From a virus: a DNA stretch of 45,877 bases. The DNA is taken from positions 1-45,877 of the IMG/VR virus record IMGVR_UViG_3300012920_000071, one strand, 5' to 3'. This document shows positions 6,047 through 45,435 of the stretch, one piece after another (position 1 is the first letter of the stretch; each line of letters starts with the position of its first letter). Under the pieces are notes generated by a model. It made no database searches and was not told the origin of the DNA. It saw nothing but the letters and a program-made list of their open reading frames with translations. Both the position numbers and the translations under genes were made by a program.

Positions 6047-6613
6047 ATGAGCGACTTAAAGTGGGCAAAAGGCATTCTCGAGAAGGTTGAGCAGGGCAAA
6101 GAAGTAAGCCAGGAAGACCTTCAGCGAGCAACAGAGATAACGCTAGACGAGGTGAAGAACAATGCTCCTCGTTATGCTAAAAACCAGACGGAACTTGCAG
6201 CCATATTTAAAGTAGACCGCAAAACCATACAAAGATGGCGTAAAGAGCCCGGTTTTCCTGTCCCCGCATCCAATGGTAAGTGGGATGTAGCCGCTACGCG
6301 CGAGTGGCTACGCGCGAATAATAAGATTGATAATAGTGACATTGAAGAGGAAGACCTGCATGAGCTCAAAATCCGTCAGTTAAAATTGATATGTGAAAAA
6401 CTGGAGCACGAGTTGAAGGTAAAGCGAGGTGAATATACCTTAAATGAGGATGTCCGTAGATGGGTTGCTACCATGGTGCAGGAGTCAAAAACCGTGCTTT
6501 TAAGCATTCCATCCAAGCTTGCTCCAATAATGGCTGGACTAGAACCTGCTGATGCTGAAGAGCGCCTCAAGGAAGCAATTGATGAGGCTTTGGAGCAACT
6601 GCACACCAGTTGA
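6047..6613 (+). CDS. terminase small subunit (Nu1-like)
   Basis: 188 aa. Residues about 45-95 (NQTELAAIFKVDRKTIQRWRKEPGFP ... WDVAATREWLRANN) form the winged helix-turn-helix DNA-recognition domain of lambda Nu1-type small terminases. The rest is a helical region (ELKIRQLKLICEKLEHELKV...) ending in a helix typical of oligomerisation or large-subunit contact. It recognises the packaging site and recruits the large terminase. It lies upstream of TerL but is separated from it by five small genes. No SD is visible before ATG 6047, and the predicted rightward promoter lies about 50 nt upstream. Confidence 0.85.
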   Translation: MSDLKWAKGILEKVEQGKEVSQEDLQRATEITLDEVKNNAPRYAKNQTELAAIFKVDRKTIQRWRKEPGFPVPASNGKWDVAATREWLRANNKIDNSDIEEEDLHELKIRQLKLICEKLEHELKVKRGEYTLNEDVRRWVATMVQESKTVLLSIPSKLAPIMAGLEPADAEERLKEAIDEALEQLHTS

Positions 6614-6632
6614 CATATGCCACTAAAGTATG
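6610..6632 (+). promoter_or_regulatory. GTTGACA-N14-ATG element (gene 6630)
   Basis: TTGACA at 6610-6615, 14 nt, then ATG 6630. The TGA inside it is the stop codon of the small terminase gene. No SD is present. Confidence 0.6.
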
Positions 6633-7304
6633 TTCGACCTTGAGCCATTTCATAACAATCCTACGCTAACGCTTTGCGATAGCTGCAAGTACAAGCCTAC
6701 TTGTTTGTCAAAAGGGAAGTGCTTATTGAAGTCTGCTCATTCTTTTACTGAGAAGTACCACTCAATGTTGTCTTTATTTAATGAGTCACCCGCGGGTAAC
6801 ATTGAATTAGCGAGGTATAAGACTAACCCTAAGACAGGGGAAAGAGTCCAAGTTACGGAGGTTAAAGATAAGGCTGTAGCAAAGAAATTGGATACACAGA
6901 AGAGTTGGACTCCCAGCAAGGTAAAGGACGATAAAATCAGAAAAAAGATAACAGAAGGTGAACTCTCCAAGAAAGAAGTTCCCCAGATGGATAAACCATT
7001 ACCATCACAGGGTGGAACTACCAGTACGGGTCAGCATAACAAGTTTAAACCTGAAGTACCTGAAGGGGGCAAAGTTCGCAGTACCACAAAGAACAGACCT
7101 AGCGTTACCCCAAAGACCCAATCGAAGTTGAAGGAGAAAGCAGGGGAATTATATGATTTATTTAGAGGCCAAGCAAAGGGAACATTAAACTCAGAGGATG
7201 TTGAGAAACTTGAAGGAGTGGTAAAGCGTCTCGCAGATAGAAGAGGCATATCAAGAGCGAAAGCCATCGGGATGCTGAAAAAAGTTGCAAGGCTACGTAA
7301 GTAA
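6630..7304 (+). CDS. basic protein with N-terminal Cys cluster, 224 aa
   Basis: Follows TerS. The N-terminus carries CDSCKYKPTCLSKGKC (residues about 16-31), a possible metal-binding Cys4 cluster. The remainder is Lys/Thr/Ser/Pro-rich and probably disordered, then a helical basic end (residues about 170-224, LKEKAGELYDLFRGQAKGTL ... AKAIGMLKKVARLRK). No family recognised. The start is fixed by the GTTGACA-N14-ATG element. Its position between the terminase subunits and its charge suggest a virion or DNA-associated protein. Confidence 0.65.
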   Translation: MFDLEPFHNNPTLTLCDSCKYKPTCLSKGKCLLKSAHSFTEKYHSMLSLFNESPAGNIELARYKTNPKTGERVQVTEVKDKAVAKKLDTQKSWTPSKVKDDKIRKKITEGELSKKEVPQMDKPLPSQGGTTSTGQHNKFKPEVPEGGKVRSTTKNRPSVTPKTQSKLKEKAGELYDLFRGQAKGTLNSEDVEKLEGVVKRLADRRGISRAKAIGMLKKVARLRK

Positions 7305-7306
7305 GT

Positions 7307-7328
7307 TGACATAGGGAACTTTATTATG
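7307..7328 (+). promoter_or_regulatory. GTTGACA-N13-ATG element (gene 7326)
   Basis: TTGACA at 7307-7312, just after the previous stop, 13 nt, then ATG 7326. The only near-perfect copy with a 13- rather than 14-nt gap. Confidence 0.6.
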
Positions 7329-7634
7329 AGTAAAATCGATGAATTAAACCGCCGGGTCATCGAGTTAGACGCGGCTCTCGACCAAGTGATTATTGCACGT
7401 GGCGAGAATCTAGCCGCTGAAATGGAATTTATGCATGGAGACTCCCATGAAAATGGGAAGAAACTTGCTGGTGGTGCTGCTCTTGCTGGTGGCGCAATCT
7501 ATGGGGGCATGGCAATGAAAAGAGCTGGTGGCCTTAAGCCCAAAAGAATGGGACGGGTTATGAAATATGATGCAAAGAGAGCCGGACGCTCTTTAGGTCG
7601 TGGTTTAAAAAAAATCGGAGGTTTCTTTAAATGA
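7326..7634 (+). CDS. small glycine-zipper protein, LxELN-type start, 102 aa
   Basis: Starts MSKIDELNRRVIELDAALDQ, an amphipathic helix similar to the starts of the genes at 7631, 8166, 8486 and 45433. A Gly/Ala run (KLAGGAALAGGAIYGGMAM, about residues 55-75) has the small-residue spacing of a glycine zipper and could insert in a membrane. The tail is strongly basic (KRMGRVMKYDAKRAGRSL...). Family role unknown; I infer a virion-ejected or membrane-active protein. Its stop overlaps the next start. Confidence 0.65.
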   Translation: MSKIDELNRRVIELDAALDQVIIARGENLAAEMEFMHGDSHENGKKLAGGAALAGGAIYGGMAMKRAGGLKPKRMGRVMKYDAKRAGRSLGRGLKKIGGFFK

Positions 7635-10628: not shown

Positions 10629-11192
10629 TTAGAGGAGGGCCTTGTAGATTTCCATGATGGGCTTCATCGAGTTTGCTAGTAGACGCTTTTCATCATCAGT
10701 CCAAGAAGTCACAGGCTTTGATTTACATGCTTTCTTCCAATATTGCTCAATCTTAGAGCACAACCCAGGTATGCTTTCAAACCGTTGGTCTGAGCTTTTT
10801 GAGTATGTTGATTTCTCTCCATCGTGATCAATACCAAGGCACTGACGCAAGGAAGTGTACTTCCCACTATCCAAGTCCAATTGCCCTGATGCTTTTAGCT
10901 CATGCAGTTTGATATACTGATATGCTGTCTTTCTATTGAAATCGAGATTTTCCTTACACCAAGCTTTGAAGTCTTCAACTTCATCTCTAACTTGTGAAAG
11001 AACCTCACCCGCGCGTGCGAAATGCACAAGTGAAGAGGACATTGACTGTAAACCAGCCTGATGTGCTTCACGCACTTCCTCTACTCTATTGCGAGAACTA
11101 ACTATAACTCCCACTTCCTCTGTCTTCTCTATTACGGATACATGACCAGTAACGGTCAGGTTATCTAACTTACGTTCAGTAGCTGTACTCAT
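10629..11192 (-). CDS. DUF3102-like protein, 187 aa
   Basis: Leftward. Helical protein with VEDFKAWCKENLDFNRKTAYQYIKLHEL (here split over residues about 72-98), the pattern of DUF3102-type phage/plasmid proteins (fxxWcxxnlxfskrtAyxYixlxe) that look DNA-associated. The C-terminal half is basic. It overlaps the HTH gene by 4 nt, so both form one unit. It sits on the opposite strand inside the head operon. Likely a regulator or DNA-binding partner; function not proven. Confidence 0.6.
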   Translation of the reverse strand: MSTATERKLDNLTVTGHVSVIEKTEEVGVIVSSRNRVEEVREAHQAGLQSMSSSLVHFARAGEVLSQVRDEVEDFKAWCKENLDFNRKTAYQYIKLHELKASGQLDLDSGKYTSLRQCLGIDHDGEKSTYSKSSDQRFESIPGLCSKIEQYWKKACKSKPVTSWTDDEKRLLANSMKPIMEIYKALL

Positions 11193-11602
11193 TTATTTCT
11201 CTCTAACTGTATTTTTCTGTATTTTTCACAAGCGGCCAAAGATTTCTGACCTCTTGTGGGTGGAAGTCCAAAGTTTTTTTGAAATAGTTTCACTGATTTA
11301 CTCAGTGCTTGTTTAGTAACTCCATGCATCTCTGCAATCTCTTTCATTGATTTACCAAGGAAAAGAGGCAGACCGAAAGAGCAAACGATAGTTGCGATCT
11401 TTAGCCTGTAGTTACTGGAATCATATATCAGCGCAATGACTCTCGTTAGAGCATCCTGTACTTCGCGTCTCACCTTTTCTTTTATGTACTCCTGGAGCAC
11501 ATCTGGCATTTCTGAAAGAATACCGTCTTTATCAAGCTTGTCGTAATCGAAATCTATACTATCATAGTCGAACTCTACTTTGCCCTCGAGTAATGTTGAC
11601 AT
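11189..11602 (-). CDS. helix-turn-helix (sigma-like region) protein, 137 aa
   Basis: Leftward. The N-terminus is acidic (VEFDYDSIDFDYDKLDKDG). Residues about 92-112 (KSMKEIAEMHGVTKQALSKS) form a helix-turn-helix of the sigma-4 or resolvase type. SD AAGGAAAA precedes ATG 11602. Its ATG lies inside the GTTGACA box of the opposite-strand gene 11616, so the two divergent starts share DNA. A candidate transcription regulator of the late genes or of its own cassette. Confidence 0.65.
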   Translation of the reverse strand: MSTLLEGKVEFDYDSIDFDYDKLDKDGILSEMPDVLQEYIKEKVRREVQDALTRVIALIYDSSNYRLKIATIVCSFGLPLFLGKSMKEIAEMHGVTKQALSKSVKLFQKNFGLPPTRGQKSLAACEKYRKIQLERNK

Positions 11603-11618
11603 CGTTTTCCTTGGTATG
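11596..11618 (+). promoter_or_regulatory. GTTGACA-N14-ATG element (gene 11616)
   Basis: TTGACA at 11596-11601, 14 nt, then ATG 11616. Overlaps the start codon of the leftward HTH gene. Confidence 0.6.
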
Positions 11619-11894
11619 AGCGTGGCTAACTGGAAGGTAATCTACCGAGATTACACGAGTGAAGAAATTGCAGAGGAACTTGCAACATTAAAAAAAGAGG
11701 CTAAAAATATGTACTTAGCCCAGAGTGTTGGCAATAAATCTTACCAACGCAGCATCACAAGTGTAGAGGAGCGGCTACGGGCTATCGCGGAAATCAAACG
11801 TGAGCAGGGTGGAAATTCATATAACGACTCTTACTATGTTGACTTTCGTGGCGAAGGTCAAATTGAATGGGGTAACCGCAATAGAATACCATGA
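11616..11894 (+). CDS. head-to-tail joining protein, gpW-like
   Basis: 92 aa. Start chosen at ATG 11616 because the GTTGACA element sits 14 nt upstream and the upstream extension would overlap the divergent gene. Helical protein with IAEELATLKKEAKNMYLAQS and a C-terminus WGNRNRIP. Size and place (immediately before the portal) match lambda gpW-type head completion proteins. Overlaps the portal start (ATGA). Confidence 0.65.
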   Translation: MSVANWKVIYRDYTSEEIAEELATLKKEAKNMYLAQSVGNKSYQRSITSVEERLRAIAEIKREQGGNSYNDSYYVDFRGEGQIEWGNRNRIP

Positions 11895-13426
11895 GCAATA
11901 AACCTTCATTCTTAGATAAGACAATCGCGTTCATCAATCCTGAGTGGGGCTTAAAGCGCAAGTACCATTCAGACCGTCTTGAATTTGCCTATGATGCGGC
12001 TAGGCATACGCGGGCGCATGAGAGCGCGGGACATAGCCTTTCAACGGCTGCATCAGAGAGCCTACAGAATCAACGTGACCGTGTTAAGATGATGTGGGAA
12101 GCACGTAACCTCGTGCAAAACTACTCATTCTTTAAGAGCATCCTTCTAAAGGAGAGCATGTATGTTTGCGGATCAATCCGTTACCAAAGTCAAACTGGCG
12201 AGCCTTCAATAGACCAGGCATACGAAGAATACTTTAACAATTGGCAGAAGAAGTGTGATATAACAGGTCGCCATCAATTTCGTCACCTAGTGCAACTTGC
12301 CCACATGGGAATGCGTAGAGACGGTGATGCGGGCTTTGTTATGGTCACGCAGGGCAAGGATGTTAAAATCCAGTCAATTGAGGCAGACCGAATTGGTAAC
12401 CCAAATGAGCTTGGTAAGAAGCAAGACAATTACATTGGTGGCATAACCATCAACGAGTTTGGCCAACCAACAGGGTATAAGATTTATAAGCGCACACTTC
12501 ATGGTCAATACAAAGACCCAAGAGACATACCTGCGCCCAACTTCGTCCACTACTTTGACCCAATGAGGTCAGACCAGTATCGTGGAATAACAGCATTTGA
12601 AACTGCAATCCCCCACGCAAAGGATTTGTATGAACTGCTTAAGATGGAGAAGTTAGCAGTCAAATGGGGATCAGCTCATGCCGGCGTGATCACTAAGAAT
12701 GATCAAGGGCCTGACAAGTGGACGTCAAAAGTCCCTGTGGATTCGCAGGGCAAAGCTGTTGATATGAAGCTGGAGAAGATAGATCCAGGAAAAATTCTTC
12801 GTTTACAGCCAGGGGATTCCGTCAACATGTTCCCTACCAGCAGCCGTCCTTCCGCGACTTTCAATGGATTTATCAACACTCTTGTAAGAGAGATGGCAAA
12901 TGGCTTGAACTTGCCTTTCGCTTTCGTCTGGGACATGAGTGCGTTTGGTGGTGCAACAGCCCGCTTAGAGGTTCAACAAGCACAAAGAGCCTTCATGCGC
13001 CACCAAACACTTCTTAAGGAACAAGTCCTCGATCGCATCAAGGATGCAGTAATAGGACGAGCTATAGCTTATCAAGACTTGCCCGCGCACCCCAACTACA
13101 AGAAGGGACGCTGGCAGTTCAATTCTCAGATTACTGCTGATTTAGGGCATGAGGTTCAAGCCAACCTAAATCTAATGCAAGCAGGGCTAAAGACATCTGA
13201 AGCTATATTTGGTGAAATGGGCTTAGACTTCCAAGAGGAAAGTGAAAAAGTCGCTAAGGAGCTTTCATACCTACAGGAACTAAGCCAGAAGTATGGCATT
13301 CCACTTGGTGTATTGGCTCAAAGACTACAAGGTTCTGATCAAGCCATAATGGAGTATAGGCAACTACTATCCGGCGAACAGCCACAACAACAACAGCAAG
13401 GTGAGCAAGAAGGCCAAGGGAATTAA
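11891..13426 (+). CDS. portal protein (lambda gpB-type)
   Basis: 511 aa, lambda-type portal family. Conserved features seen: VQNYSFFKSILLKESMYVCG, HMGMRRDGDAGFVM, VKIQSIEADRI, HYFDPMRSDQYRGIT and GLNLPFAFVWDMS. It forms the dodecameric DNA channel at the capsid vertex, contacts the terminase during packaging and the connector afterwards. C-terminus is Gln-rich (QPQQQQQGEQEGQGN), which looks like a flexible tail. Starts four nt inside the gpW-like gene. Confidence 0.92.
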   Translation: MSNKPSFLDKTIAFINPEWGLKRKYHSDRLEFAYDAARHTRAHESAGHSLSTAASESLQNQRDRVKMMWEARNLVQNYSFFKSILLKESMYVCGSIRYQSQTGEPSIDQAYEEYFNNWQKKCDITGRHQFRHLVQLAHMGMRRDGDAGFVMVTQGKDVKIQSIEADRIGNPNELGKKQDNYIGGITINEFGQPTGYKIYKRTLHGQYKDPRDIPAPNFVHYFDPMRSDQYRGITAFETAIPHAKDLYELLKMEKLAVKWGSAHAGVITKNDQGPDKWTSKVPVDSQGKAVDMKLEKIDPGKILRLQPGDSVNMFPTSSRPSATFNGFINTLVREMANGLNLPFAFVWDMSAFGGATARLEVQQAQRAFMRHQTLLKEQVLDRIKDAVIGRAIAYQDLPAHPNYKKGRWQFNSQITADLGHEVQANLNLMQAGLKTSEAIFGEMGLDFQEESEKVAKELSYLQELSQKYGIPLGVLAQRLQGSDQAIMEYRQLLSGEQPQQQQQGEQEGQGN

Positions 13427-15533
13427 GCGATTATTTCGTGCTTATCTCGATAAGCTAGATAAAAAGTCTAGAGCCAAGTTAGCCAAGTTACCCGCGGGTG
13501 ACTTCGCTACTGATAAGTTCTACACTCCAAAGGTGACGATGGACAAGCTCAAGACCAAGGCTATTGACTATGGGGGTGCAGGTGCTGCGGGAACGGGTGG
13601 TTACATCATAGGCGGCAAGGATGATCCCAATAAGAAGGACACTAGTGGTCGCCCAGATAAAAGGCTTAATAGGAAGATAAGTGCTTACAAGGCTGCTGGG
13701 CTTATATCAGAAAAAGAAGCTGAGAGCCTTAGAAAAAGCACTACCAATGTGATCAATAGAAGGCTTGATGGCATGAAGCCTACAACTGATCAACGTGCAA
13801 AAATTGAGAGGTCATTAGGCTTCAAGGATGGTCAAGCAGCTCGACAATCACGCGAGTATGATGAAAAATATGCCAAAACCAATCGAGATGTTGATGAGGC
13901 TAAAAAAGCTGCTAACCGTGAAAGAAGACAAGCTCAAAGAAAATATAGCGAAATAGCAGAGCAAAGAAGAAGAGATGCCTCAATCGCAGGTAATACATCA
14001 CGATCTACTCTTACTGAAAGTCAAAAGAGAAACATTAAGAGGCAAACACGTGCAAAACTACCAGCAGAATTAAATGACAAGATTGAGCGAGTAGGGGTAC
14101 AAGGACTTCGTGGAGCTGATAAATTAGCTTACAACTCTGCATATCGGGTACAAGAGGATCGTTTTGTAAAGAGACTTAGCTCTGGTTCTAAGGGTAGATT
14201 AACTCAAGAGCGTAGCAAAAGAAAAACCTTTGTTGATGAGCGAGAAAAGAAATATGTAGGTGAAGGACTAGAGCGCGCAGAAGCTCGCAAACTTGCAAAC
14301 ATTGACTACAATTCAAGGTCAAGAAAGAATCCGGTTCCTAAAAAAGTGCGAGGTAAGAAATCTAAGTTTGAATCTGTCAAAGAGACATTAACGGAAGAGG
14401 CTAAAAAAGGGAACAAAAAGGCTCAAGACGAACTCAAGAAGTATAATGAAAATCCACCAACAACGACTGGGGGGATGCAGCAAAGACTTGATAATATAAA
14501 AGGCAATACTGGAGAAGGTCTAGAGATTACACCAACAGGTACTTCAACAGGCAGACTACAGGGACAAACAAAAGAATCTCAGCAAGCCGCAAAGAAAAGC
14601 ATAGAAGTCGAAAAGGGTAGCCAAGAGGATGTTAAAATTAAGCCTCTTTCTAAAGTTATTGGTGAAATGCCTGAACTACAGGGTGAAAGAGGAGAAGCAT
14701 ATGTAAGTGCAAGGGAGGCCATAGGAAGCGCATATCGTTCTGGAAAGATAACTGCAGCACAGGCTAAAGCACGAAATAAAAAAGCTTTAGCAAACCTTCG
14801 GTCCCCTAAAACAACTGTTGCTGACTTAACGCGCAAAACACAACGTAGATCAAAGAAAATTGATCAACCAGGCTCCAAGCCTCAATTCGATCCTTCTGCT
14901 AAAGTTGAAGGAGGTAAGTATGGTCTTAAGAAAAATGAAAAAGGCCAGAAGGTAGTTGATAAAAGACCTGCTCAGGAAATCACTCCAACTGCAAAAGATA
15001 GAGCGAAGCTTGATCAAGCAATTGCTGTATCTAGTAACATCAAGAAAACCACTAAGGCTGACTCTCAAGCTGAACAGCAACAGGAAGCTGCAAGGAATAA
15101 AATTTTAGCAGACAAGGATAGGCGCGATAAAAAGAAGAAGAAGAATAACGAGCTTGCTTCAAAAATTACACAAACCTTTTTTGAGGAGAAAAAAGAAAAG
15201 AGAAAAAGTAAACGTTTGGCCGCAGGCGCAGCCGCGGGAACCCTTACTGGTGCAGAGATAGCTAGACGCTATGTAATGCATGATGTGCCGGCTCGTCATC
15301 GTCAGTACGACAAGGCTGGATACTCAAAAAAACAACCAACCACAGGTGGAGTTGAGGGGCAAGATTTGACGGGCTGGGCTAAAGGCAAAAAAGGCTTATA
15401 TAGCAAGGATGCCCCAACAGGATTCCGTAGGAAAGTTACTGGAAGAGCACTAGCTCGATTGTTGACAGGGACAGGCTTAGGTATAGCCGCCGGAGGACTT
15501 TATCATCATGCCAAGCAGAAACGAAGAGATTGA
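13401..15533 (+). CDS. large Lys/Arg-rich protein with C-terminal glycine zippers, 710 aa
   Basis: GTG start at 13401 overlapping the portal end. Almost the whole chain is charged and predicted helical or disordered, with strong Lys/Arg excess. A short Gly/Ala stretch lies near residues 54-68 (GGAGAAGTGGYIIGG). Two Gly/Ala hydrophobic segments lie at the C-terminus (LAAGAAAGTLTGAEIARRYV and LTGTGLGIAAGGLYHHAK). No family recognised. Place and composition suggest a capsid-interior protein that is ejected with DNA, as in other phages with internal proteins after the portal; this is inference. Confidence 0.6.
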   Translation: MSKKAKGIKRLFRAYLDKLDKKSRAKLAKLPAGDFATDKFYTPKVTMDKLKTKAIDYGGAGAAGTGGYIIGGKDDPNKKDTSGRPDKRLNRKISAYKAAGLISEKEAESLRKSTTNVINRRLDGMKPTTDQRAKIERSLGFKDGQAARQSREYDEKYAKTNRDVDEAKKAANRERRQAQRKYSEIAEQRRRDASIAGNTSRSTLTESQKRNIKRQTRAKLPAELNDKIERVGVQGLRGADKLAYNSAYRVQEDRFVKRLSSGSKGRLTQERSKRKTFVDEREKKYVGEGLERAEARKLANIDYNSRSRKNPVPKKVRGKKSKFESVKETLTEEAKKGNKKAQDELKKYNENPPTTTGGMQQRLDNIKGNTGEGLEITPTGTSTGRLQGQTKESQQAAKKSIEVEKGSQEDVKIKPLSKVIGEMPELQGERGEAYVSAREAIGSAYRSGKITAAQAKARNKKALANLRSPKTTVADLTRKTQRRSKKIDQPGSKPQFDPSAKVEGGKYGLKKNEKGQKVVDKRPAQEITPTAKDRAKLDQAIAVSSNIKKTTKADSQAEQQQEAARNKILADKDRRDKKKKKNNELASKITQTFFEEKKEKRKSKRLAAGAAAGTLTGAEIARRYVMHDVPARHRQYDKAGYSKKQPTTGGVEGQDLTGWAKGKKGLYSKDAPTGFRRKVTGRALARLLTGTGLGIAAGGLYHHAKQKRRD

Positions 15534-16947: not shown

Positions 16948-17373
16948 ATGCAAGAAGAAGAACGTAAAGAAGCGATTAAGAAAGCAGGTCGAGCCGCTGG
17001 TGCTGTCGCAGCTGGTGGTGCATACTGGAAAGCCGCAAGAGATAATCAAATACTCAAAAATGCTAATGAAGACCGAAAGGGCTTTAGGCGGGATTTGGAG
17101 CAAAAGAAAAAAGCTGCTTTTGAAGAATATAAAGCAAAGAGGGGTGGAGATGCATCCATGGATAGCTGGCTAAAAGGAGAGGGTAAAGAGCACGCAGGTA
17201 TTGAGGCAAAGAAAAACAAGTATAATGACTTTATAGAGAAGAGAGATAAGGTAAAATTCATAGACACTCCAGGAAGCCACAAAACTGCGATATTTAAAAA
17301 TCGCTTTAGGCATCTGTACAACAGAATGAATCTCGGAAAAGCAAGGCTCCCCAGAATCCTCACACGTGTATGA
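16948..17373 (+). CDS. basic protein with N-terminal glycine-zipper segment, 141 aa
   Basis: ATG 16948 immediately after the previous stop. Starts MQEEERKEAIKKAGRAAGAV, then AVAAGGAYWKAA; Gly/Ala spacing suggests a short amphipathic or zipper helix. The rest is a Lys-rich helical chain. Ends over the start of the decoration fusion (4-nt overlap). Same inferred class as the previous genes. Function unknown. Confidence 0.55.
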   Translation: MQEEERKEAIKKAGRAAGAVAAGGAYWKAARDNQILKNANEDRKGFRRDLEQKKKAAFEEYKAKRGGDASMDSWLKGEGKEHAGIEAKKNKYNDFIEKRDKVKFIDTPGSHKTAIFKNRFRHLYNRMNLGKARLPRILTRV

Positions 17374-20488: not shown

Positions 20489-20513
20489 CCAACAACAAAA
20501 AATTGCGTAAAAG

Positions 20514-20536
20514 TTGACTCCAACGTTTTTATTATG
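20514..20536 (+). promoter_or_regulatory. GTTGACT-N14-ATG element (gene 20534)
   Basis: TTGACT at 20514-20519, 14 nt, then ATG 20534. One mismatch from TTGACA. No SD upstream. Confidence 0.55.
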
Positions 20537-20992
20537 GCTACTACATCTAATGCTGCAGGCGACTGGTTTGAAGAAAATGCACTAAACCATCTTTTTGGTT
20601 ACATGTCTGTCTCACAACCAACTTCTATTGATATTAAACTTTACTCTTCTGATCCAGGCGAAGATGGATCAAGTTCAACTGAGCTTGATACTTCTAATGA
20701 CCCAGGATATAGTGCCGTAACACTATCAAGTCTTAGTAGTGATGGCACAGTAGGCACAGACAGTGATGGTTACTACTGGGCTCCAAACTCTGATGTGACT
20801 TGGACTGCTAGTGGTGCTTGGACAACTGCCCCAGGTGGCATTGCATTATGGGCTGATGGCTCCTATATTCTAATGCATGGATCACTAGATGATGGGTCAG
20901 GTGGGTCACTTTCGGCTTTGAGTAATGGACAAACTTTGACGATTAGCTGTGATGGCACGTCATCATCTTCCTTAAAATTTAAACTCTCATAA
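20534..20992 (+). CDS. fibre-like protein with xLYSSDPGEDG motif, 152 aa
   Basis: Ser/Thr/Gly-rich, no membrane segment. Contains DIKLYSSDPGEDGSSSTELD, paralogous to KLGLYTSDPGEDGTSGTEVS in the next gene. This motif is familiar from phage virion proteins often annotated as tail-fibre proteins. The rest is beta-prone (VTWTASGAWTTAPGGIALW). I infer a capsid or tail fibre component; location between portal and protease hints at a capsid-associated role. Confidence 0.6.
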   Translation: MATTSNAAGDWFEENALNHLFGYMSVSQPTSIDIKLYSSDPGEDGSSSTELDTSNDPGYSAVTLSSLSSDGTVGTDSDGYYWAPNSDVTWTASGAWTTAPGGIALWADGSYILMHGSLDDGSGGSLSALSNGQTLTISCDGTSSSSLKFKLS

Positions 20993-20994
20993 CA

Positions 20995-22197
20995 ATGGCA
21001 CTCACAGGATCGTTTACTACCGCATTCCAGAATAAGCTACTAGACGCTTTAGCGTCTAATGATGTTTTAGATACCTGCCTTGATGGACTAAAGCTTGGTC
21101 TTTACACCTCAGACCCAGGCGAAGATGGCACATCAGGAACTGAAGTTTCAGGTGGTAACTATTCTCGCCAGTCATTTACTGTTGGAGCAGCAACTGAGGA
21201 TACTTCAGTTACACCATCTGTAGGTAAAATCTCGAATGCTGCAGCTATTAATTTTGCAGCTAACGGTGCAGCTTGGAATGGCATTGAATACGCTGCTATC
21301 TTTAGGACTAAGAGTCTTACTCGTTCAATAGTTGGCATTACAAATGCCAGTGAAGTAAACGCAAGCGGAGATTCGGTTTCGTATAACAAAATAATCATTC
21401 CTGCTTCACATTGCTCAACTGTAGCGACTTTGACGATCACAGGATTTGATGTTGTAGACCGTGCTGGTGGTGATGGTGTTGCAGATTGGCATTCAACCCT
21501 TACCTATAGTGGAAGTAATGCTACTTACTACACTGAAGAATCAAATGGGGCGGCTGCAAACAGCGCCCAAAATTCAACGAACTTTATTCGCGTAAAAACA
21601 GGACCATTAGCTGGTATTTGTTATGATATTGTTGGTGAAGGAACCAACACCATAACAATTGATTCCTACTACAAATTCTTGGATGAAGATATTTTAAATC
21701 AACAAGTTGAAGTCATGGCAAAAGTGACTTTGGCAGATTTATCTGGTATTGTTCACAATAGCTCAACTACCCTTGATAGTAATGGCTATGCCGCATCTGG
21801 ATCAGGTTTCCTTTCGGGTAGTTCGTCTACTGCTGACCGATTTTATATCCATAATACTTTACAAACAGCAGTCGTTTACTATTTACAAAACGCACCAGTT
21901 TTTGCTGGCGACGTAGGCTGGCGACAACTAGGTGTAGCAGCATCTGCGGATGCTGGTGGTGCTGTAATCCCCCCAGCAGAACTATGGCCACATACAGACC
22001 AGACAACTGATGATTACTGTATGTTGGATACAAGACAAACCGCTGACTGGACTCTAACTAGCCAGGTTTCAACCACCGACGAACTAGTTGCTCGCCTTCG
22101 TGCTGTTGATGGCTCTGGAAATAATGCTACACTCAACGTAGCGGATGGTTCAAGTTTAGAGATTTCCGCAGGCGATCTTAAGCTCACACTTTCGTGA
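20995..22197 (+). CDS. fibre-like protein with xLYTSDPGEDG motif, 400 aa
   Basis: N-terminal 130 aa (MALTGSFTTAFQNKLLDALA ..., with GLYTSDPGEDG and GGNYSRQSFTVG) match the same phage fibre-type family as the previous gene. The remaining 270 aa are Ser/Thr/Gly-rich and beta-prone with no motif I know. Overlaps the next GTG start (GTGA). Paired duplication with gene 20534 suggests two interacting subunits. Confidence 0.6.
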   Translation: MALTGSFTTAFQNKLLDALASNDVLDTCLDGLKLGLYTSDPGEDGTSGTEVSGGNYSRQSFTVGAATEDTSVTPSVGKISNAAAINFAANGAAWNGIEYAAIFRTKSLTRSIVGITNASEVNASGDSVSYNKIIIPASHCSTVATLTITGFDVVDRAGGDGVADWHSTLTYSGSNATYYTEESNGAAANSAQNSTNFIRVKTGPLAGICYDIVGEGTNTITIDSYYKFLDEDILNQQVEVMAKVTLADLSGIVHNSSTTLDSNGYAASGSGFLSGSSSTADRFYIHNTLQTAVVYYLQNAPVFAGDVGWRQLGVAASADAGGAVIPPAELWPHTDQTTDDYCMLDTRQTADWTLTSQVSTTDELVARLRAVDGSGNNATLNVADGSSLEISAGDLKLTLS

Positions 22198-22547
22198 ACC
22201 ATAATGATGTTATATCATTACCTGTCACCACTGCATCGTCAGCTGGTGACATTATGGTTTTAAATAGTGATGGTACTTGTACTCCTTATGGAGCCGGCAA
22301 TACTAAAGAGAAGGCAATAGGCGTTGCATTACATGATGTTGATCCTACGGAAGTAGGTGATCCACATGCCATCCACTTATTCGGTGGGATATTCGTAGCT
22401 AAGGCAGGTGGCCCCATATCAATTGGTGATATCGTGGGCATACGTGATGGTGTAGCTACCTTGCAAAACTCCGGCACAATACGTCAAGTTGGGATAGCAC
22501 TTGAAAACCTTACAGGTGTCGGTCTAATTAGAGTCATATCAACATGA
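22194..22547 (+). CDS. head decoration-like protein, copy 2, 117 aa
   Basis: GTG start overlapping the previous stop. Begins MNHNDVISLPVTTASSAGDI, same start as the domain at 17370 and the protein at 23674. Pattern of Gly-x-V and small beta strands (EKAIGVALHDVDPTE ... VGIALENLTGVGLIRVI) fits decoration/DUF2190-type capsid proteins. Lies just before the protease gene. A capsid surface or assembly role is inferred. Confidence 0.65.
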   Translation: MNHNDVISLPVTTASSAGDIMVLNSDGTCTPYGAGNTKEKAIGVALHDVDPTEVGDPHAIHLFGGIFVAKAGGPISIGDIVGIRDGVATLQNSGTIRQVGIALENLTGVGLIRVIST

Positions 22548-23659
22548 ACGAAGACATTCATTTTTTTAACGCAGTAGATGGTCGTATCGACCCTGATGCG
22601 GGTGTAGTAAGAGGTGTTTCCTTAATAACCATGGGTACTGCTCGTGGTCACAATCTTGAGGTAGATGATAAAACACTCACACAACTAAAAGAATCACTTG
22701 ATAGCACACCACCACCAGGTATCAAAGCTAAGTTGAATCATCGCTCTGGGGTTGAAGCTGTATTCGGTTATATCAACAACTTCCAAGTTGAAGGTAATAA
22801 GCTTACTGGTGACCTAAACATGCTAAGGCATCACAAAGACTTTAATCAGACGATGGAGCAAATAACTACGATGCCCGGTCAGATAGGACTTTCGGTTGCT
22901 TTTCAAGGAGACAAAGAACCGGGTAAGGATGGAAAAGTTTATGCTCGCTGTAAGCGAATAGTCTCCGTAGATTTAGTACCTGATCCGGCAGCTAACCCGG
23001 ACGGGATGTTTGAAAGTAAAGTTGACAACGACATAGTGTATATGGACCAGGAACCTAATGTAGAGGAACTCCTTCAGGGCATCGCAGAGCGCCTTGACGG
23101 CGTTGAGGAATTTCAAGGCAACTTGGAAGAAGCAATCGCAGACCAGCTAACTGAAGATTACTCTGATGAAGATTACTCTGATGAGGATTATTCTGATGAA
23201 GCTGATTATGCCGACGATGAAGTCGAATATGAGGATTCTTACGAGGATTCTGAAGCAGAGTACGAGCCAGTCGAATACTCCAGCATTGATGATGCCTTGA
23301 CTTACCTTGAGGCTAAAGCTGAAGGCGCTCTTGCCGCTGAAGAGGAAGCTCGTGAAAATATGCTTTTTGAAAATGTAGAGGACAAAGTTGTTGAGCTCGC
23401 TGAGATCAACCAGCAGCTACAAGCTGAAAACGAAGTACTACAGGAAGCTCTTGAACTTCAAGAGGTAGAGGCTGTACCAACTTCATCAGAAGCTTTCTTG
23501 TTCGGCGCAGATGCCGGTGAAGGAACTTTTGAGTTCGCTATTCAACAACACGCTTCTGGCGAAGCTGAAAGTAGCCACGAAGCAATTCGTTCTGCTGTTG
23601 CTGACTCTCCAGCTGCTCACCGTGACTGGCTAATACGCCAAGGAATCTTAGAAAACTAA
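22544..23659 (+). CDS. prohead serine protease with scaffold-like C-terminus
   Basis: 371 aa. Residues 1-160 are a capsid maturation protease: KAKLNHRSGVEAVFGYINNF (His66), a loop TTMPGQIGLSVAF (Ser117 as likely nucleophile) and VDLVPDPAANPDGMFES. Downstream is an acidic part with DYSDE repeats (about 205-219), then a coiled coil (AEINQQLQAENEVLQEALEL, about 284-303). This matches protease-scaffold polyproteins such as lambda C, whose second half (Nu3) is also made separately from an internal start; here see 23042. It lies just upstream of a decoration gene and the capsid gene. Confidence 0.85.
   Translation: MNEDIHFFNAVDGRIDPDAGVVRGVSLITMGTARGHNLEVDDKTLTQLKESLDSTPPPGIKAKLNHRSGVEAVFGYINNFQVEGNKLTGDLNMLRHHKDFNQTMEQITTMPGQIGLSVAFQGDKEPGKDGKVYARCKRIVSVDLVPDPAANPDGMFESKVDNDIVYMDQEPNVEELLQGIAERLDGVEEFQGNLEEAIADQLTEDYSDEDYSDEDYSDEADYADDEVEYEDSYEDSEAEYEPVEYSSIDDALTYLEAKAEGALAAEEEARENMLFENVEDKVVELAEINQQLQAENEVLQEALELQEVEAVPTSSEAFLFGADAGEGTFEFAIQQHASGEAESSHEAIRSAVADSPAAHRDWLIRQGILEN
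23022..23044 (+). promoter_or_regulatory. internal GTTGACA-N14-ATG element
   Basis: TTGACA 23022-23027, 14 nt, then in-frame ATG 23042 (Met167 of the protease gene). Same spacing as in front of other late genes. Confidence 0.55.
23042..23659 (+). CDS. predicted internal start: scaffold protein, 205 aa
   Basis: Same frame as the protease; would start at Met167 (MDQEPNVEELLQGIAERL). Contains all the acidic repeats and the coiled coil but none of the protease domain, which is what a scaffolding protein should look like. Evidence is the GTTGACA-N14-ATG element (23022-23041), identical in spacing to that of other late genes, plus the known lambda C/Nu3 precedent. Expression itself is inferred. 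Confidence 0.5.
   Translation: MDQEPNVEELLQGIAERLDGVEEFQGNLEEAIADQLTEDYSDEDYSDEDYSDEADYADDEVEYEDSYEDSEAEYEPVEYSSIDDALTYLEAKAEGALAAEEEARENMLFENVEDKVVELAEINQQLQAENEVLQEALELQEVEAVPTSSEAFLFGADAGEGTFEFAIQQHASGEAESSHEAIRSAVADSPAAHRDWLIRQGILEN
23156..23200 (+). repeat. three 15-nt tandem repeats (DYSDE)
   Basis: GATTACTCTGATGAA repeated three times with one or two substitutions, coding DYSDE x3 in the acidic linker of the scaffold region. Likely slippage-prone and of variable copy number. Confidence 0.8.
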
Positions 23660-25128: not shown

Positions 25129-25162
25129 AAAAGGGGCGGCTCAATCGAGTCGTCCCTTTTTG
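25129..25162 (+). terminator. intrinsic terminator after the capsid gene
   Basis: GGGGCGGCTC (25133-25142) pairs with GAGTCGTCCC (25147-25156) over a 4-nt loop, flanked by AAAA and TTTTTGTT; ten pairs, two of them G-U. A textbook rho-independent terminator, which separates the head operon from the tail operon. The next gene's GTTGACA box starts directly behind it. Confidence 0.85.
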
Positions 25163-25185
25163 TTGACATAAACATTCTTGTTATG
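25163..25185 (+). promoter_or_regulatory. GTTGACA-N14-ATG element (gene 25183)
   Basis: TTGACA 25163-25168, 14 nt, ATG 25183. Directly downstream of the terminator, so this copy opens a transcription unit or follows read-through. Confidence 0.6.
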
Positions 25186-25524
25186 AGCATATTCACTGAC
25201 GGGCTTAATCTTTCAATTGAACCTGCAATGGATCAGATGGCTGAGACTGTCTGGATTAATGGTAGTAATCCCGTCCTTGCGATCCCTGATCCAGTAGAGA
25301 AATCTACATCACGCACAATAGCTGGAAAAATGACTGAAATCGCGAGTGTCGTGTATATGAGGAGACAAGATGTTGATACCTTTAACGTGAAGAAGGGTGA
25401 TAGAATATCCTTCTCACACCTAGGAGGAGTTGTAGCGGGTCGTGTGGTTGCTGTAGAAGATGATGGCACACAAATGATCACCCTCACTTGTGGGCCTGTT
25501 CTAAAAGGAGTTGTTCCAGTATGA
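25183..25524 (+). CDS. head-tail connector protein, gpFII-like
   Basis: 113 aa, first gene after the capsid terminator. The C-terminal half has the GDRISFSHLGGVVAGRVVAV pattern and a beta-strand rich end (MITLTCGPVLKG), which resembles small head-tail joining proteins (lambda FII type). Size and place fit. Function by position and fold impression only. Confidence 0.55.
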   Translation: MSIFTDGLNLSIEPAMDQMAETVWINGSNPVLAIPDPVEKSTSRTIAGKMTEIASVVYMRRQDVDTFNVKKGDRISFSHLGGVVAGRVVAVEDDGTQMITLTCGPVLKGVVPV

Positions 25525-25706: not shown

Positions 25707-26451
25707 TTCATATCAAGACCCCAAAAGAGAAGTAGAGCTTACAATATGTAGGCATCTAAAAGAAGCTACCCAAGTACCATTTTTTCCAAACAAAGGAGAC
25801 CTGGAGCATGAGCTTCCATTTGGAGCTGTTCTATGTGAGTCCATGAAACCGCTACTTGGTGGTAGTCTACCAAGAGGTTACAGATGCGATGTGCGAGTGG
25901 TTTACGTAAGTCACATGGATGAAGTTGGCTCCTTAGAGCACTCAATGGCTATCGCAAGGATAGAAGATGCTTTGAATAAGATACCCCAAGACAAAACTAG
26001 CCCCCAGGTGGTCGAGTTTATAGTTCAAGGAGGCAGGGGCGATAAGTTTGATTACGACATTGGTAATGGTATGACTACCTTAGAATCTGGTAATAATACA
26101 AACCCCGGTTTATTACTTGCTCAAGAAGTTGATAAAGACCCAATACTAAGCGCGTCTTATGAAATCATAAATGAGTATTCAGTTTTTTCTGAGACAAAAG
26201 TAAAGGTCACAGGTGATAGGGATGGTAGACCTTTTACTTTTAACATTAGTGTAAATACTGATGAATCTACAATAGCAAACATCAAGGAATTCACTCAAAC
26301 TAATGGAGTGGTCAATGAGTATGATCTTGAGAATAATCACACAAAGATTGTTGGTCTTTACGTAATGGACATTCAGGAGTCAAGTGAAGCACAATCCTTT
26401 GGTGACCTTTTTGTGTGTAGAGTTGCTGTTGTTGGGGAAAGCAACTGTTAG
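25699..26451 (+). CDS. tail terminator/completion-like protein with C-terminal extension, 250 aa
   Basis: Residues about 1-105 (REVELTICRHLKEAT ... RCDVRVVYVSHMDEVGSLEH ... ARIEDALNKI) resemble the small tail terminator (gpU/tail completion) family, where a strand of this type precedes a helix. Residues 106-250 form a second part (GGRGDKFDYDIGNGMT..., SYEIINEYSVF, DLFVCRVAVVGESNC), which a standard terminator lacks. Possibly an N-terminal terminator domain fused to a second virion domain. Confidence 0.5.
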   Translation: MIDSYQDPKREVELTICRHLKEATQVPFFPNKGDLEHELPFGAVLCESMKPLLGGSLPRGYRCDVRVVYVSHMDEVGSLEHSMAIARIEDALNKIPQDKTSPQVVEFIVQGGRGDKFDYDIGNGMTTLESGNNTNPGLLLAQEVDKDPILSASYEIINEYSVFSETKVKVTGDRDGRPFTFNISVNTDESTIANIKEFTQTNGVVNEYDLENNHTKIVGLYVMDIQESSEAQSFGDLFVCRVAVVGESNC

Positions 26452-26474
26452 TTGACAAAGGGCTTTTTAGTATG
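26452..26474 (+). promoter_or_regulatory. GTTGACA-N14-ATG element (gene 26472)
   Basis: TTGACA 26452-26457, overlapping the previous TAG stop region, 14 nt, ATG 26472. Confidence 0.6.
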
Positions 26475-26846
26475 GCTACTACAAAATTAGGCGACTGCGC
26501 GTATATTTACGGAATTGATACCAATGAAGAAATCGCTGGTATGATTATAACTGGCCTAACGAAGGAAACTTCTCCTGAGTTTGAGGCTGAAGCAACCGAT
26601 GATACCGGTAATGTAAAATCGGTCGTTAGGGGTGGTGATAAGATAAGTTACACAGTTTCAGGCTTTGCTAAAAATACAGCACTGCTTAGTACACATGGTG
26701 GAGATGGATGTACAACTACCATTGATGAAAAAACATGTATTATTGAAAAGTGGTCAATCAATAGCGCAAATAATGACTTTGCAAAGTGTGAATTGACTGC
26801 GGTACATTATCCGGTAGCAACTTACTGCTGTTCTCCAGATGCATGA
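26472..26846 (+). CDS. tail tube-like protein, copy 1, 124 aa
   Basis: Small beta-rich protein with ITGLTKETSPEFEAEATDD followed by NVKSVVRGGDKISYTVSGF. The next gene carries the same layout, so they are paralogs. Place (after the terminator-like protein, before chaperone and tape measure) is that of tail tube proteins. Two Cys pairs near the end (CTTTIDEKTCIIEKW, TYCCSPDA). Inferred tail tube or tube-related. Confidence 0.6.
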   Translation: MATTKLGDCAYIYGIDTNEEIAGMIITGLTKETSPEFEAEATDDTGNVKSVVRGGDKISYTVSGFAKNTALLSTHGGDGCTTTIDEKTCIIEKWSINSANNDFAKCELTAVHYPVATYCCSPDA

Positions 26847-26883
26847 TTTGTAAACATCACTAAAATTTAAACAAAGTAGTAAA

Positions 26884-27237
26884 ATGGCAAAAGAAGAATG
26901 TGGTAAGTTTTTATTTGGTACAACAGCTGTTACAGGCATCTCAATTGCGGTTGAGAGTACATCATCTGAGTCAAATCCTCAGTACCAAGCTGAAGCTAAA
27001 AATAAAGATGGAGAAACTGAGGCTATCAAGGTTGGAAAGCTTACAGGCTCTTGTACTGTAAGTGGCTTTAAGAAAAGTGGAGCGGAAGAACCTAAAATTG
27101 GCGACACGTTTCCTCTTGATGGAGAAACTTTTTTTGTAGACAAAGTTACAGTTACACAATCCAATGAAGATTTCCAAAAAATGGAAGTTGTAGGGAAATT
27201 CTGGCAAGGTGTAACCACGGTGTGTCCGAATGCTTAA
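26884..27237 (+). CDS. tail tube-like protein, copy 2, 117 aa
   Basis: Paralog of the previous gene: ISIAVESTSSESNPQYQAEA, then TEAIKVGKLTGSCTVSGF, with the same spacing. No GTTGACA box and no clear SD before ATG 26884. Duplication of a tube gene could give two tube components or a tip/terminator variant. Which copy is the main tube protein cannot be told from sequence. Confidence 0.55.
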   Translation: MAKEECGKFLFGTTAVTGISIAVESTSSESNPQYQAEAKNKDGETEAIKVGKLTGSCTVSGFKKSGAEEPKIGDTFPLDGETFFVDKVTVTQSNEDFQKMEVVGKFWQGVTTVCPNA

Positions 27238-36027: not shown

Positions 36028-36533
36028 ACTCATACACACATAGCTCAAAGTTTACAGTAGAAGTCTCATTAAAGAACGACAATGTGACAGCTACGCCTTT
36101 TGACACAGCATCAGCAACGGGTGATGCGGAGCCACTAGACCCCGAAAAAGACTTGGAGATTAGGGTAATGGACACGAAGTACATTGGCACAGGACTCGGT
36201 AAAGACGATAAAGGTCGTCCTGCTAATCCAGAGGTTAAGAGGGAATTGCATAACTCATTATCTTTTCATGCTCTTGCTGCTGGTAGCTCAGTGAGTCCAT
36301 ACCTCCAAAAAGTTTGTGTGAAAATTAAAAGAATTGGAGACATTGAAGATATCAATAGTGTTAATCGACAGCCTCCCAATCCTTATAGTAAATTAGTGCA
36401 GATTGGGGTAGATGACCTACCAATAGCAGGTACGAATGGTGGCAACGCTTTCACCGGTAATCTTTCGCCTGACAAGGAGTTGGGACAAGAAAGTGTAACA
36501 GAATTTCCAGAGAAATACGCAGATTATGACTAA
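36024..36533 (+). CDS. hypothetical protein, 169 aa
   Basis: Purine-rich GGAGGAAGAAGG upstream of ATG 36024 acts as SD but also codes the acidic end of the previous protein. Product starts MNSYTHSSKFTVEVSLKNDN, beta-prone, acidic. No family recognised. Probably the last tail gene. Confidence 0.6.
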   Translation: MNSYTHSSKFTVEVSLKNDNVTATPFDTASATGDAEPLDPEKDLEIRVMDTKYIGTGLGKDDKGRPANPEVKRELHNSLSFHALAAGSSVSPYLQKVCVKIKRIGDIEDINSVNRQPPNPYSKLVQIGVDDLPIAGTNGGNAFTGNLSPDKELGQESVTEFPEKYADYD

Positions 36534-36783
36534 AGGAGAAATACTTAGAGATGAAGCCATCGAGCACTTTCGTAATCGAGCAAAAGCAAAATACGATGCA
36601 GGGCAGGAACAACATGGTGGATTTCTTAAAGATAGGGTAGATTGGAAGGACTTAGAGGACGAGTCTATTGACTTTATGTTTTACCTTTATGCTCTGATGA
36701 ATAAAAAAGAAGAGGAGATACTACAACTTAAGAATAAGATAAAGTCTCTTGAATCTAGAATGTTAGAAATAGACTCGCGTTGA
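36526..36783 (+). CDS. MazG-like protein, 85 aa
   Basis: Contains AKAKYDAGQEQHGGFLKDRV ... LEDESIDFMFYLYALM. The KYxxGQxEHGG ... EsiDxxxYL pattern is that of small MazG-like all-alpha phage proteins (possible nucleotide pyrophosphohydrolase). The acidic ExxxD residues of the second helix are present. C-terminal coiled coil (KEEEILQLKNKIKSLESRML). Overlaps the previous gene by 8 nt. Confidence 0.6.
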   Translation: MTKGEILRDEAIEHFRNRAKAKYDAGQEQHGGFLKDRVDWKDLEDESIDFMFYLYALMNKKEEEILQLKNKIKSLESRMLEIDSR

Positions 36784-36802
36784 CAACACTCGGTAGGTTG
36801 TG
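36780..36802 (+). promoter_or_regulatory. GTTGACA-N14-GTG element (holin-like gene)
   Basis: TTGACA 36780-36785 contains the previous TGA stop; 14 nt, then GTG 36800. The spacing rule identifies this start. Confidence 0.5.
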
Positions 36803-43942: not shown

Positions 43943-45331
43943 ATGTGGATATTAGCGACAAAGAAATTACGTGCATTGGCTTGTTTACCGGAGGAGGAGC
44001 GCTCGAGCTCGGAGTTAGAAGAATTATCCCAAACCTGCGAATGCTCGCTTATGTGGAGATCGAAGCCTATGCGGTCACCCTCTTGGCTCAAAAAATTGAA
44101 AGGGGGGAGTTGGATGAAGCACCTATCTTCACTGATGTTACCCAATTCCCTGCAGAACTCTTTCGTGACAAAGTACACCTCGTCGTTGCCGGATATCCAT
44201 GCCAAGATTTCTCCACCGCAGGGAAAAGAGCAGGACTGGAGGGTAATCGCGGAAAGATGTGGGGATACACCAGGTCAGTTGTATCTAGACTTCGAGCCAG
44301 AGCCTTCTTTGGAGAAAATGTTGAAGGCCACGTGTCGCTTGGACTCGACACAGTCGTCAGCGATTTGGTTGAAGATGGTTTCATGGTTAAGGGAGGATTA
44401 TATTCGGCGTTCGAGGTTGGTGCGCCTCATCTTAGAAAGCGAATATTCACATTATCATTCCGAACAGACCCACACACAGGTGGATGGGAGCATGCAAGAA
44501 CAGGAAACCAAGGATGGCTTGACCTCGCAGACGCAGAGTTCCAAGCAATTACCACAGGAAGAGTGCAACTGGCCGACCCCTCAAGTATCAGACGGGAACG
44601 GAGCAGCGAATCCACTACGAGAGGATCATCGGAAGCAATTGAGAGATGTGGAGACGGGCTTGGGGGAGATGTGGCCAACACCAACAACAGCAGAGGGGGG
44701 GAAGATCAGTTGTCAGCCGAACTACGGACAGACGGGACTGAGCAATCATCCATCGATTGTGGGGGAGGTTACCAGACCCAAGGGAGAGAAGAGCCGAAGC
44801 TGGCCGACCCCAGTAGTGACGGATTGCTCAGACGAAGACCTGAAGACATGGGAGAAGAGGTGCGAGAAGCACGGAGAAATGATGCAGAGACCTCTCAGGA
44901 TTGCGGTTCAACAGGATATGCTAGAGGAAGCCATGAAGAGTGGCCAATTAGGTGGCCAGCAAGACCCGGAAACCGACAGCATGACTGGGAAGCCCCTAGA
45001 GTCTTGGGCAACCCCGAACACAATGGATCACCTGCCGCCGAGATCGGAGGAAGCCACAGAGAGGATGATGACGGGGGCAAGGAAGGGGAGATCAGCTCCA
45101 AGCAACCTTCGGGAGCAAGTAGACCCAAAGACGATGAAAGCATGGGCGACTCCAAGGACACTGGATGCGGACGGGCTGATGATGAATGTAAAGAAAAGGG
45201 GTCTACAGCCAGAGAACACACTTTGCGGTCAAGCAGCGAATCAAGTGAAGAGCAAGAAGCTCAATCCGTCATGGGTGGAGAGTCTGATGATGTTACCCGC
45301 GGGTTACACTCAAATAGAATCGACAGACTAA
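43943..45331 (+). CDS. overlapping second-frame protein with WPTP repeats, 462 aa
   Basis: Open for 462 codons in another frame over nearly all of the methyltransferase. The C-terminal half repeats WPTP/WATP (44570, 44672, 44801 and further at about 45008 and 45143) and ends KLNPSWVESLMMLPAGYTQI. I know this pattern (WPTP tracts ... LNPxWVExLMGxPxGWT) from stand-alone phage proteins, so this frame looks conserved rather than accidental. Each WPTP pairs with a LADP/VANT/LGNP unit of the methyltransferase frame. The true start is unknown; ATG 43943 with the same SD is only one option. The N-terminal third may be non-coding noise. Confidence 0.5.
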   Translation: MWILATKKLRALACLPEEERSSSELEELSQTCECSLMWRSKPMRSPSWLKKLKGGSWMKHLSSLMLPNSLQNSFVTKYTSSLPDIHAKISPPQGKEQDWRVIAERCGDTPGQLYLDFEPEPSLEKMLKATCRLDSTQSSAIWLKMVSWLREDYIRRSRLVRLILESEYSHYHSEQTHTQVDGSMQEQETKDGLTSQTQSSKQLPQEECNWPTPQVSDGNGAANPLREDHRKQLRDVETGLGEMWPTPTTAEGGKISCQPNYGQTGLSNHPSIVGEVTRPKGEKSRSWPTPVVTDCSDEDLKTWEKRCEKHGEMMQRPLRIAVQQDMLEEAMKSGQLGGQQDPETDSMTGKPLESWATPNTMDHLPPRSEEATERMMTGARKGRSAPSNLREQVDPKTMKAWATPRTLDADGLMMNVKKRGLQPENTLCGQAANQVKSKKLNPSWVESLMMLPAGYTQIESTD

Positions 45332-45426
45332 GAATGCTTGGAAATGGTGTGGTATGGCTTACTGCGGCAAAAGCCTTTAGCGAAATGCTTGACCAACATA
45401 GGTCAGACTGGGTTGACACAACCTAG
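43945..45426 (+). CDS. DNA (cytosine-5) methyltransferase
   Basis: GTG start 43945 after AGGAG. Motifs in order: I FTGGGALELG (about 14-23), IV GYPCQDFS (catalytic Cys86), VI ENV (124-126), VIII LRKRIF, then the C-terminal motif IX/X RMLGNGVVWLTAAKAF. It methylates cytosine, protecting phage DNA from host restriction, or marking DNA. Between motif VIII and X (about 180-440) the chain is a long hydrophilic insertion with repeats LADAEF, LADPSS, VANTNN, LADPSS, LGNPEH, MGDSKD. This insertion is where a second open frame overlaps it (see next feature). Confidence 0.9.
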   Translation: MDISDKEITCIGLFTGGGALELGVRRIIPNLRMLAYVEIEAYAVTLLAQKIERGELDEAPIFTDVTQFPAELFRDKVHLVVAGYPCQDFSTAGKRAGLEGNRGKMWGYTRSVVSRLRARAFFGENVEGHVSLGLDTVVSDLVEDGFMVKGGLYSAFEVGAPHLRKRIFTLSFRTDPHTGGWEHARTGNQGWLDLADAEFQAITTGRVQLADPSSIRRERSSESTTRGSSEAIERCGDGLGGDVANTNNSRGGEDQLSAELRTDGTEQSSIDCGGGYQTQGREEPKLADPSSDGLLRRRPEDMGEEVREARRNDAETSQDCGSTGYARGSHEEWPIRWPARPGNRQHDWEAPRVLGNPEHNGSPAAEIGGSHREDDDGGKEGEISSKQPSGASRPKDDESMGDSKDTGCGRADDECKEKGSTAREHTLRSSSESSEEQEAQSVMGGESDDVTRGLHSNRIDRLRMLGNGVVWLTAAKAFSEMLDQHRSDWVDTT

Positions 45427-45435
45427 TTTAGTATG
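45413..45435 (+). promoter_or_regulatory. GTTGACA-N14-ATG element (gene 45433)
   Basis: TTGACA 45413-45418 inside the methyltransferase end, 14 nt, ATG 45433. Confidence 0.6.

Follow-up and report, generated by a model that had tools for sequence, protein, structure and literature searches.

A GTTGACA start-site element inside a phage head protease gene and the separate scaffold gene predicted to begin there

Scaffold genes in described systems

In bacteriophage T4 the head protease and the scaffold are encoded by separate genes, unlike the arrangement in the virus DNA described here; the T4 protease, gp21, has the protease-domain fold found at this locus (5jbl). In gene C of phage lambda, an in-frame scaffold start follows the head protease within the same open reading frame. 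The lambda scaffold is Nu3 (PMC3224144). Lambda C resembles one set of relatives described below (the L096 type) in having an S49 protease, but it differs from the present locus, which has a gp21 fold rather than S49 and which displays a GTTGACA element and no Shine-Dalgarno sequence at the internal start.

Herpesviruses provide another parallel. In HSV-1, UL26.5 is transcribed from a promoter inside the coding region of UL26, giving transcripts that are 3′-coterminal (PMC2949831; PMC4498786). As predicted for the phage locus, the 3′ half of a protease gene doubles as a separate in-frame scaffold gene. However, herpesviruses are eukaryotic viruses that use normal RNA polymerase II promoters, whereas here a seven-base element is found right at the start codon, and the message would be expected to lack a leader. 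In-frame nesting of a scaffold in a protease gene is thus an already known layout, and it is the start signal that differs.

Short sequences associated with start codons have been found in other phages. In the cluster K mycobacteriophages many start codons are immediately preceded by a short, asymmetric repeat in a single orientation, and a role in initiation has been proposed (PMC3203893). That sequence is the 13 bp GGGATAGGAGCCC, located just before the start codon; the present element is a different word, lies 13–17 bases off, has no Shine-Dalgarno character and does not belong with the cluster K sequence. No description of GTTGACA as a start element was found in the open-access papers searched.

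A further comparison is with the isolate P8625, a Verrucomicrobia phage that displays TTGACA-N30-ATG at four annotated starts (5448, 10772, 15594 and 22442). A TTGACA-type word at a fixed distance from ATG is common to both phages, but the distance is 30 bases in P8625 versus 14 here, and the Clp-like protease gene of P8625 has no such internal site. The P8625 words are at 5411, 10735, 15557 and 22405, two of them with a GTATCCA/TGGATAC inverted repeat or a near copy in between. The helix-turn-helix protein considered below is absent from P8625, and only one unannotated N13 match to the motif is present. The pattern suggests that the P8625 words are ordinary -35 boxes of leaderless genes.

The protease-scaffold gene

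The window, i.e., the whole stretch of DNA analysed, comprises 45,877 nucleotides (IMG/VR record IMGVR_UViG_3300012920_000071). The protease gene (Table 1) is in a normal head module, with terminase, portal and major capsid protein genes as neighbours and two decoration-like genes that flank it. The two decoration-like proteins, of 117 amino acids, have the N-terminus MNHN(D/G)VISLP in common with a 972-amino-acid lectin-domain protein (window positions 17370, 22194 and 23674 for the three).

The encoded protein has no Pfam or PHROG family match. An AlphaFold model based on a seven-member alignment gave T4 gp21 as the best PDB match (5jbl, E 8.5e-4), followed by herpesvirus proteases, whose matches are not significant; the fold is gp21-like and not the S49/ClpP-like domain of the lambda C type. 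The model has the protease fold at residues 21–146, a disordered linker at residues 151–172 that includes KVDN...M167, and helices at residues 173–204 and 248–306, separated by a segment highly enriched in D and E. Residues 167–371 (22.9 kDa) contain 63 D+E versus 7 K+R, with a pI of 4.05. An EDYSD tandem repeat is present in the acidic part (23155–23200), and the length of this region differs among homologs. Within the protease domain H66 and S117, the latter in a GLSV motif, are conserved (alignment A1) and are the probable catalytic residues. From fold and composition, the open reading frame is predicted to represent a T4-gp21-like head protease fused to a scaffold.

The ATG at 23042–23044 is in frame with this gene. 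Protease domain and scaffold are thus found in one open reading frame with a conserved in-frame start at the junction. Shine-Dalgarno pairing at 23042 has an energy of +0.1 kcal/mol, i.e., an internal ribosome-binding site of that kind is not seen. The initial annotation had placed the GTTGACA element at 23022; the element is real and in frame, but begins one base earlier. The annotation also had Met167 at the end of the protease domain and the beginning of an acidic, coiled-coil scaffold, which agrees with the modelled linker and the low pI. Its proposal of a separately started scaffold is supported by the homolog comparison, the codon-level conservation and the split-gene relatives described below.

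Table 1. Positions in the window of the protease-scaffold gene, the start-site elements and associated features
Feature	Position	Strand	Basis
Head-maturation protease and scaffold open reading frame, 371 aa	22544..23659	+	Open reading frame, homologs, AlphaFold model
Protease domain, codons 1-160	22544..23023	+	Invariant columns in alignment A1; fold
Start-site element GTTGACA within the protease gene; covers the codons of V160-D161 and the first base of codon 162	23021..23027	+	
Nested scaffold gene (predicted), ATG codon 167, 205 aa, acidic, coiled-coil-like	23042..23659	+	
GTTGACA-N14-ATG before gene 6630-7304	6609..6615	+	Pattern search
GTTGACA-N14-ATG before gene 7326-7634	7305..7311	+	Pattern search
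GTTGACA-N14-ATG before gene 11616-11894	11595..11601	+	Pattern search
GTTGACT-N14-ATG before gene 20534-20992, one mismatch	20513..20519	+	
GTTGACA-N14-ATG before gene 25183-25524	25162..25168	+	Pattern search
GTTGACA-N14-ATG before gene 26472-26846	26451..26457	+	Pattern search
GTTGACA-N14-ATG before open reading frame starting at 45433	45412..45418	+	Pattern search
Terminator-like hairpin with T-run, abuts the motif at 25162	25132..25161	+	
Conserved helix-turn-helix protein, candidate motif reader	11189..11602	-	Inference from co-occurrence

The element in the window

GTTGACA is present nine times on the plus strand of the window and is absent from the minus strand. A search for GTTGACA-N{10,18}-ATG gave seven matches where 1.07 are expected, all on the plus strand and all with exactly 14 bases. 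None of 100 shuffles reached seven matches, and the reversed GTTGACA pattern before ATG, searched in the window as a control, gave none. Six of the matches are at gene starts and one is at codon 167 of the protease gene; an eighth start, at 20534, carries the element with one mismatch (Table 1).

That the element occurs once inside a gene, in frame at Met167, holds true for the 14-base version, as the initial annotation stated, with three qualifications. The element at 11595 coincides in part with the opening codons of a gene on the minus strand, that at 45412 falls in the last codons of the open reading frame 43945–45426, and a GTTGACA at 15461, inside gene 13401–15533, has no ATG at N14. In this last case (15461–15508), the word is followed 40 bases later by an ATG that has a strong Shine-Dalgarno motif, GGAGG, and the arrangement is kept in L014 at 16815; it may represent leadered use of the element or chance within coding sequence. 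GTTGACA-N14-GTG is found at 36779–36802, just past gene 36526–36783 and ahead of a short open reading frame. Two other starts (20955–20995 and 26844–26884) have neither motif nor Shine-Dalgarno sequence and have TAAAATTTAAAC in common ∼10–13 bases upstream of their ATG; this may be a second element linked to starts.

Conservation in gp21-type relatives

Close isolates were not detected among 50,697 phage records: the capsid protein gave no match and TerL matched at only ∼25%. A scan of viral contigs with the single protease sequence found nothing; the alignment-based scan found 62 loci. IMG/VR contigs carry protease-scaffold homologs that are 50–65% identical, and every close homolog of the gp21-type clade has GTTGACA-N14-ATG and the in-frame Met at the same place. 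V160 and D161 are invariant in alignment A1. Between V-D and Met the sequence differs among homologs (NDIVY, NNNHN, SITMG, NIALD), whereas the number of residues is constant. In nine homologs, 119 columns are amino-acid-invariant and code-degenerate, of which only five are codon-invariant; three of these five are consecutive, AAA (K159), GTT (V160) and GAC (D161), and therefore selection acts on the nucleotides.

More distant gp21-type homologs can be aligned only over the protease domain. They carry the element with N14 in two loci (L045, L099) and with N17 in five (L042, L044, L102, L134, L143). Presence of the internal site goes together with use of the motif at other places in the same contig (counts 12/3/3/41; Fisher 1.5e-7, not corrected for ancestry, and all statistics over homologs given here are inflated by shared ancestry). 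One of the cases counted as having the motif elsewhere only, L030, is cut off before the junction. A GC-rich contig (G132, locus L053) has 21 GTTGACA in 20 kb; these peaks were set aside, the copies appearing to be part of a short tandem repeat and not to mark gene starts.

In contigs that lack the motif altogether, distant gp21-type genes have an internal ATG or GTG, in frame and preceded by a strong Shine-Dalgarno sequence, in most cases 60–73 codons past the domain. A pairing energy of -7 or better was found in 11/23 of these, versus 51/924 control windows (p 3e-8).

S49-type relatives and split genes

The same element is found at the scaffold junction of an unrelated protease of the S49 family (Pfam E 2e-25), in a contig from a Verrucomicrobia bin (L096). 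In eighty related loci, most fused genes carry the in-frame element with 14, 17 or 23 bases. The codons of the motif are again uniform (GTT for V in 18/18, GAC for D in 19/19), and other V columns are mostly GTG or GTC.

In eight loci (L179, L182, L184, L185, L215, L223, L228 and L231) the protease stops at the motif and is followed by a separate scaffold open reading frame. In split S49-type genes the TGA within GTTGACA often serves as the stop codon of the protease reading frame, and the ATG of the scaffold comes 15–17 bases downstream, in a different frame in L223, L226, L228 and L231. The separate and fused scaffolds are homologous by blastp, and in several pairs the alignment begins at the first residue of both the separate protein and the predicted internal product. 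Since the split-gene scaffolds start at the motif's ATG and are homologous to the fused scaffold, Met167 very probably starts a separate scaffold, and these relatives constitute the strongest evidence that the internal ATG would start a real one. We consider it highly probable that a second in-frame gene from Met167 makes the 205-residue acidic scaffold alone, which would let scaffold exceed protease.

Cellular contigs with a related terminase were found only in Verrucomicrobiota (a Pedosphaera bin, Geminisphaera colitermitum TAV2 and one other bin), and the hosts are probably members of this phylum. Across 96 Verrucomicrobiota genomes the motif is not enriched (41 forward/reverse matches, the reversed control giving at least as many).

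Spacing and sequence context

Among 150 distinct GTTGACA contexts of the S49 group, ATG is found at N13 (40), N14 (23), N16 (11), N17 (12) and N23 (9), and GTG or TTG at N13 (33); other spacings have ∼0.5 each. The reversed word has a flat spacing distribution in this group. Sequence logos display nothing else conserved upstream, neither a -10 box nor a second box. In the AT-rich group T is present at -1 in 33/37, and in the GC-rich group GC is preferred before the start. Shine-Dalgarno sequences are depleted at S49 sites (2% versus 25% in shuffled sequences); in gp21-group spacers their content, 14%, equals that of shuffled sequences.

Sites with displaced start codons have an initiator-like step that is fixed to the motif. 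Where the spacing at S49 sites is N16, N17 or N23, 11/16 keep a pyrimidine-A step at motif offset 13/14, other offsets having 0–6, and at gp21-type N17 sites T stays at offset 14 in 5/6. At gp21-group N13–N15 sites, T at -1 follows the ATG and not the motif. Longer leaders of at least 16 bases occur, as in L197 at N29 and in L196, which has a Shine-Dalgarno sequence. The element persists in contig G023 with no start codon at the usual distance from it. A hairpin similar to that at 25132 abuts the orthologous site in L033; a general enrichment of terminators upstream of sites was tried and set aside as weak, with terminators abutting 3/156 sites versus 0.74 expected.

A candidate reader

Among proteins common to gp21-type and S49-type motif phages, leaving out terminase subunits, portal and spurious antisense open reading frames, the clearest is the helix-turn-helix protein. 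It is encoded in 8/8 gp21-type and 3/6 S49-type motif-bearing contigs, the other three S49-type contigs that use the motif having no detectable copy, and it was not found at E<1e-3 in seven motif-less contigs (Fisher 0.001). The site at 11595 is read on the opposite strand, with the next base, as ATGTCAAC, the start of the gene for this protein; in six phages the ATGTCAAC start and a GTTGACAT site are reverse complements of one another, so that a divergent gene pair overlaps the element. The fold has no significant PDB match. The association is a correlation that makes this protein a candidate for reading the motif. Only two motif-bearing phages encode a stand-alone Sigma-70 region 4 protein with a TRERVRQIE recognition helix (84 amino acids in L258, G006:45950-46204; 87 in L259, G012:15849-16112; Pfam E ∼1e-10), and such proteins were rejected as a general reader for that reason.

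How the element may act

We infer, with moderate confidence and from comparative sequence data, that the element is a promoter that gives a leaderless or short-leader mRNA, in an arrangement resembling herpesvirus UL26/UL26.5. GTTGACA, 14 bases upstream, would set the start at ATG 23042 by acting in the DNA as a compact phage promoter, with transcription starting 13–15 bases after the motif. The 5′ end of the mRNA would coincide with the start codon or slightly precede it, and the mRNA would be translated as a leaderless message into the predicted scaffold protein; a phage factor, the best candidate being the helix-turn-helix protein, would probably help to read the element. An ordinary sigma-70 promoter was rejected, as the logos display no -10 box and the start codon would be inside the 16–18 base spacer of a TTGACA/TATAAT pair. 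A promoter for a T7-like single-subunit RNA polymerase was likewise rejected: PF00940 is not found in the related phage records searched, several of which are fragments, and the T7 control was positive.

The initial annotation held that the scaffold is made in the same way as lambda Nu3. The layout is the same, but internal ribosome entry is doubtful in view of the missing Shine-Dalgarno sequence and the displaced-start sites. Such entry would be expected if GUUGACA were a translational element in the mRNA, with ribosomes starting at an AUG 13–17 bases downstream on the long protease message and a protein or ribosomal contact replacing the Shine-Dalgarno sequence; the scaffold would still be separate. 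The tight spacing to ATG or GTG, the starts poor in Shine-Dalgarno sequences and the many sites situated in tightly packed gene runs, also in the window, are all compatible with this, and the T at -1 that tracks the ATG at gp21-type N13–N15 sites would fit as well, as it could reflect extended codon-anticodon pairing. A translational element is nevertheless rather unlikely. It explains the spacing but not the displaced starts, where the start codon has moved to N16, N17, N23 or N29 and the pyrimidine-purine step stays with the motif 13–14 bases away; a transcription start does explain these, and a promoter is favored on this account. The G023 site, the site between divergent genes and the terminator hairpins that abut some sites also argue against it.

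An endoribonuclease that recognizes GUUGACA and cuts ∼13–14 bases downstream would leave leaderless messages and would also fix 5′ ends to the motif. Processing of this kind is very unlikely, as long precursor RNAs would have to extend over terminators and divergent genes. Cleavage between domains is known for prohead proteases, and the invariant V160 and D161 could then represent protein-level conservation of a V-D-N/T linker, e.g., a cleavage site, the motif match being incidental. This is contradicted by codons that are invariant here and variable at other V and D positions, and by separate-gene relatives that keep the motif outside the coding sequence or in another frame; moreover, the residues from D161 to M167 vary while their number is fixed, and the same DNA word is found before many unrelated genes. 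Conservation of the linker as protein is thus extremely improbable as the explanation. The promoter reading may be extended to a new class of phage promoter, a single 7 bp element ∼20 bp upstream of the transcription start, with no -10 box, a phage helix-turn-helix reader and leaderless late mRNAs, that nests scaffold genes in two unrelated protease families; this is proposed tentatively, at somewhat less than even probability.

Significance

The phages compared here seem to satisfy a requirement for more scaffold than protease in several ways: by Shine-Dalgarno starts, by GTTGACA in gp21-type genes, by GTTGACA in unrelated S49-type genes and by fully split genes. These alternatives provide an explanation, open to test, of how capsid stoichiometry is set, and a parallel with herpesvirus UL26.5. 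Gene starts can be predicted from the element across a large set of uncultured phages that probably infect Verrucomicrobiota, and the element points to what may be a new mechanism of gene expression, for which there is a candidate protein.
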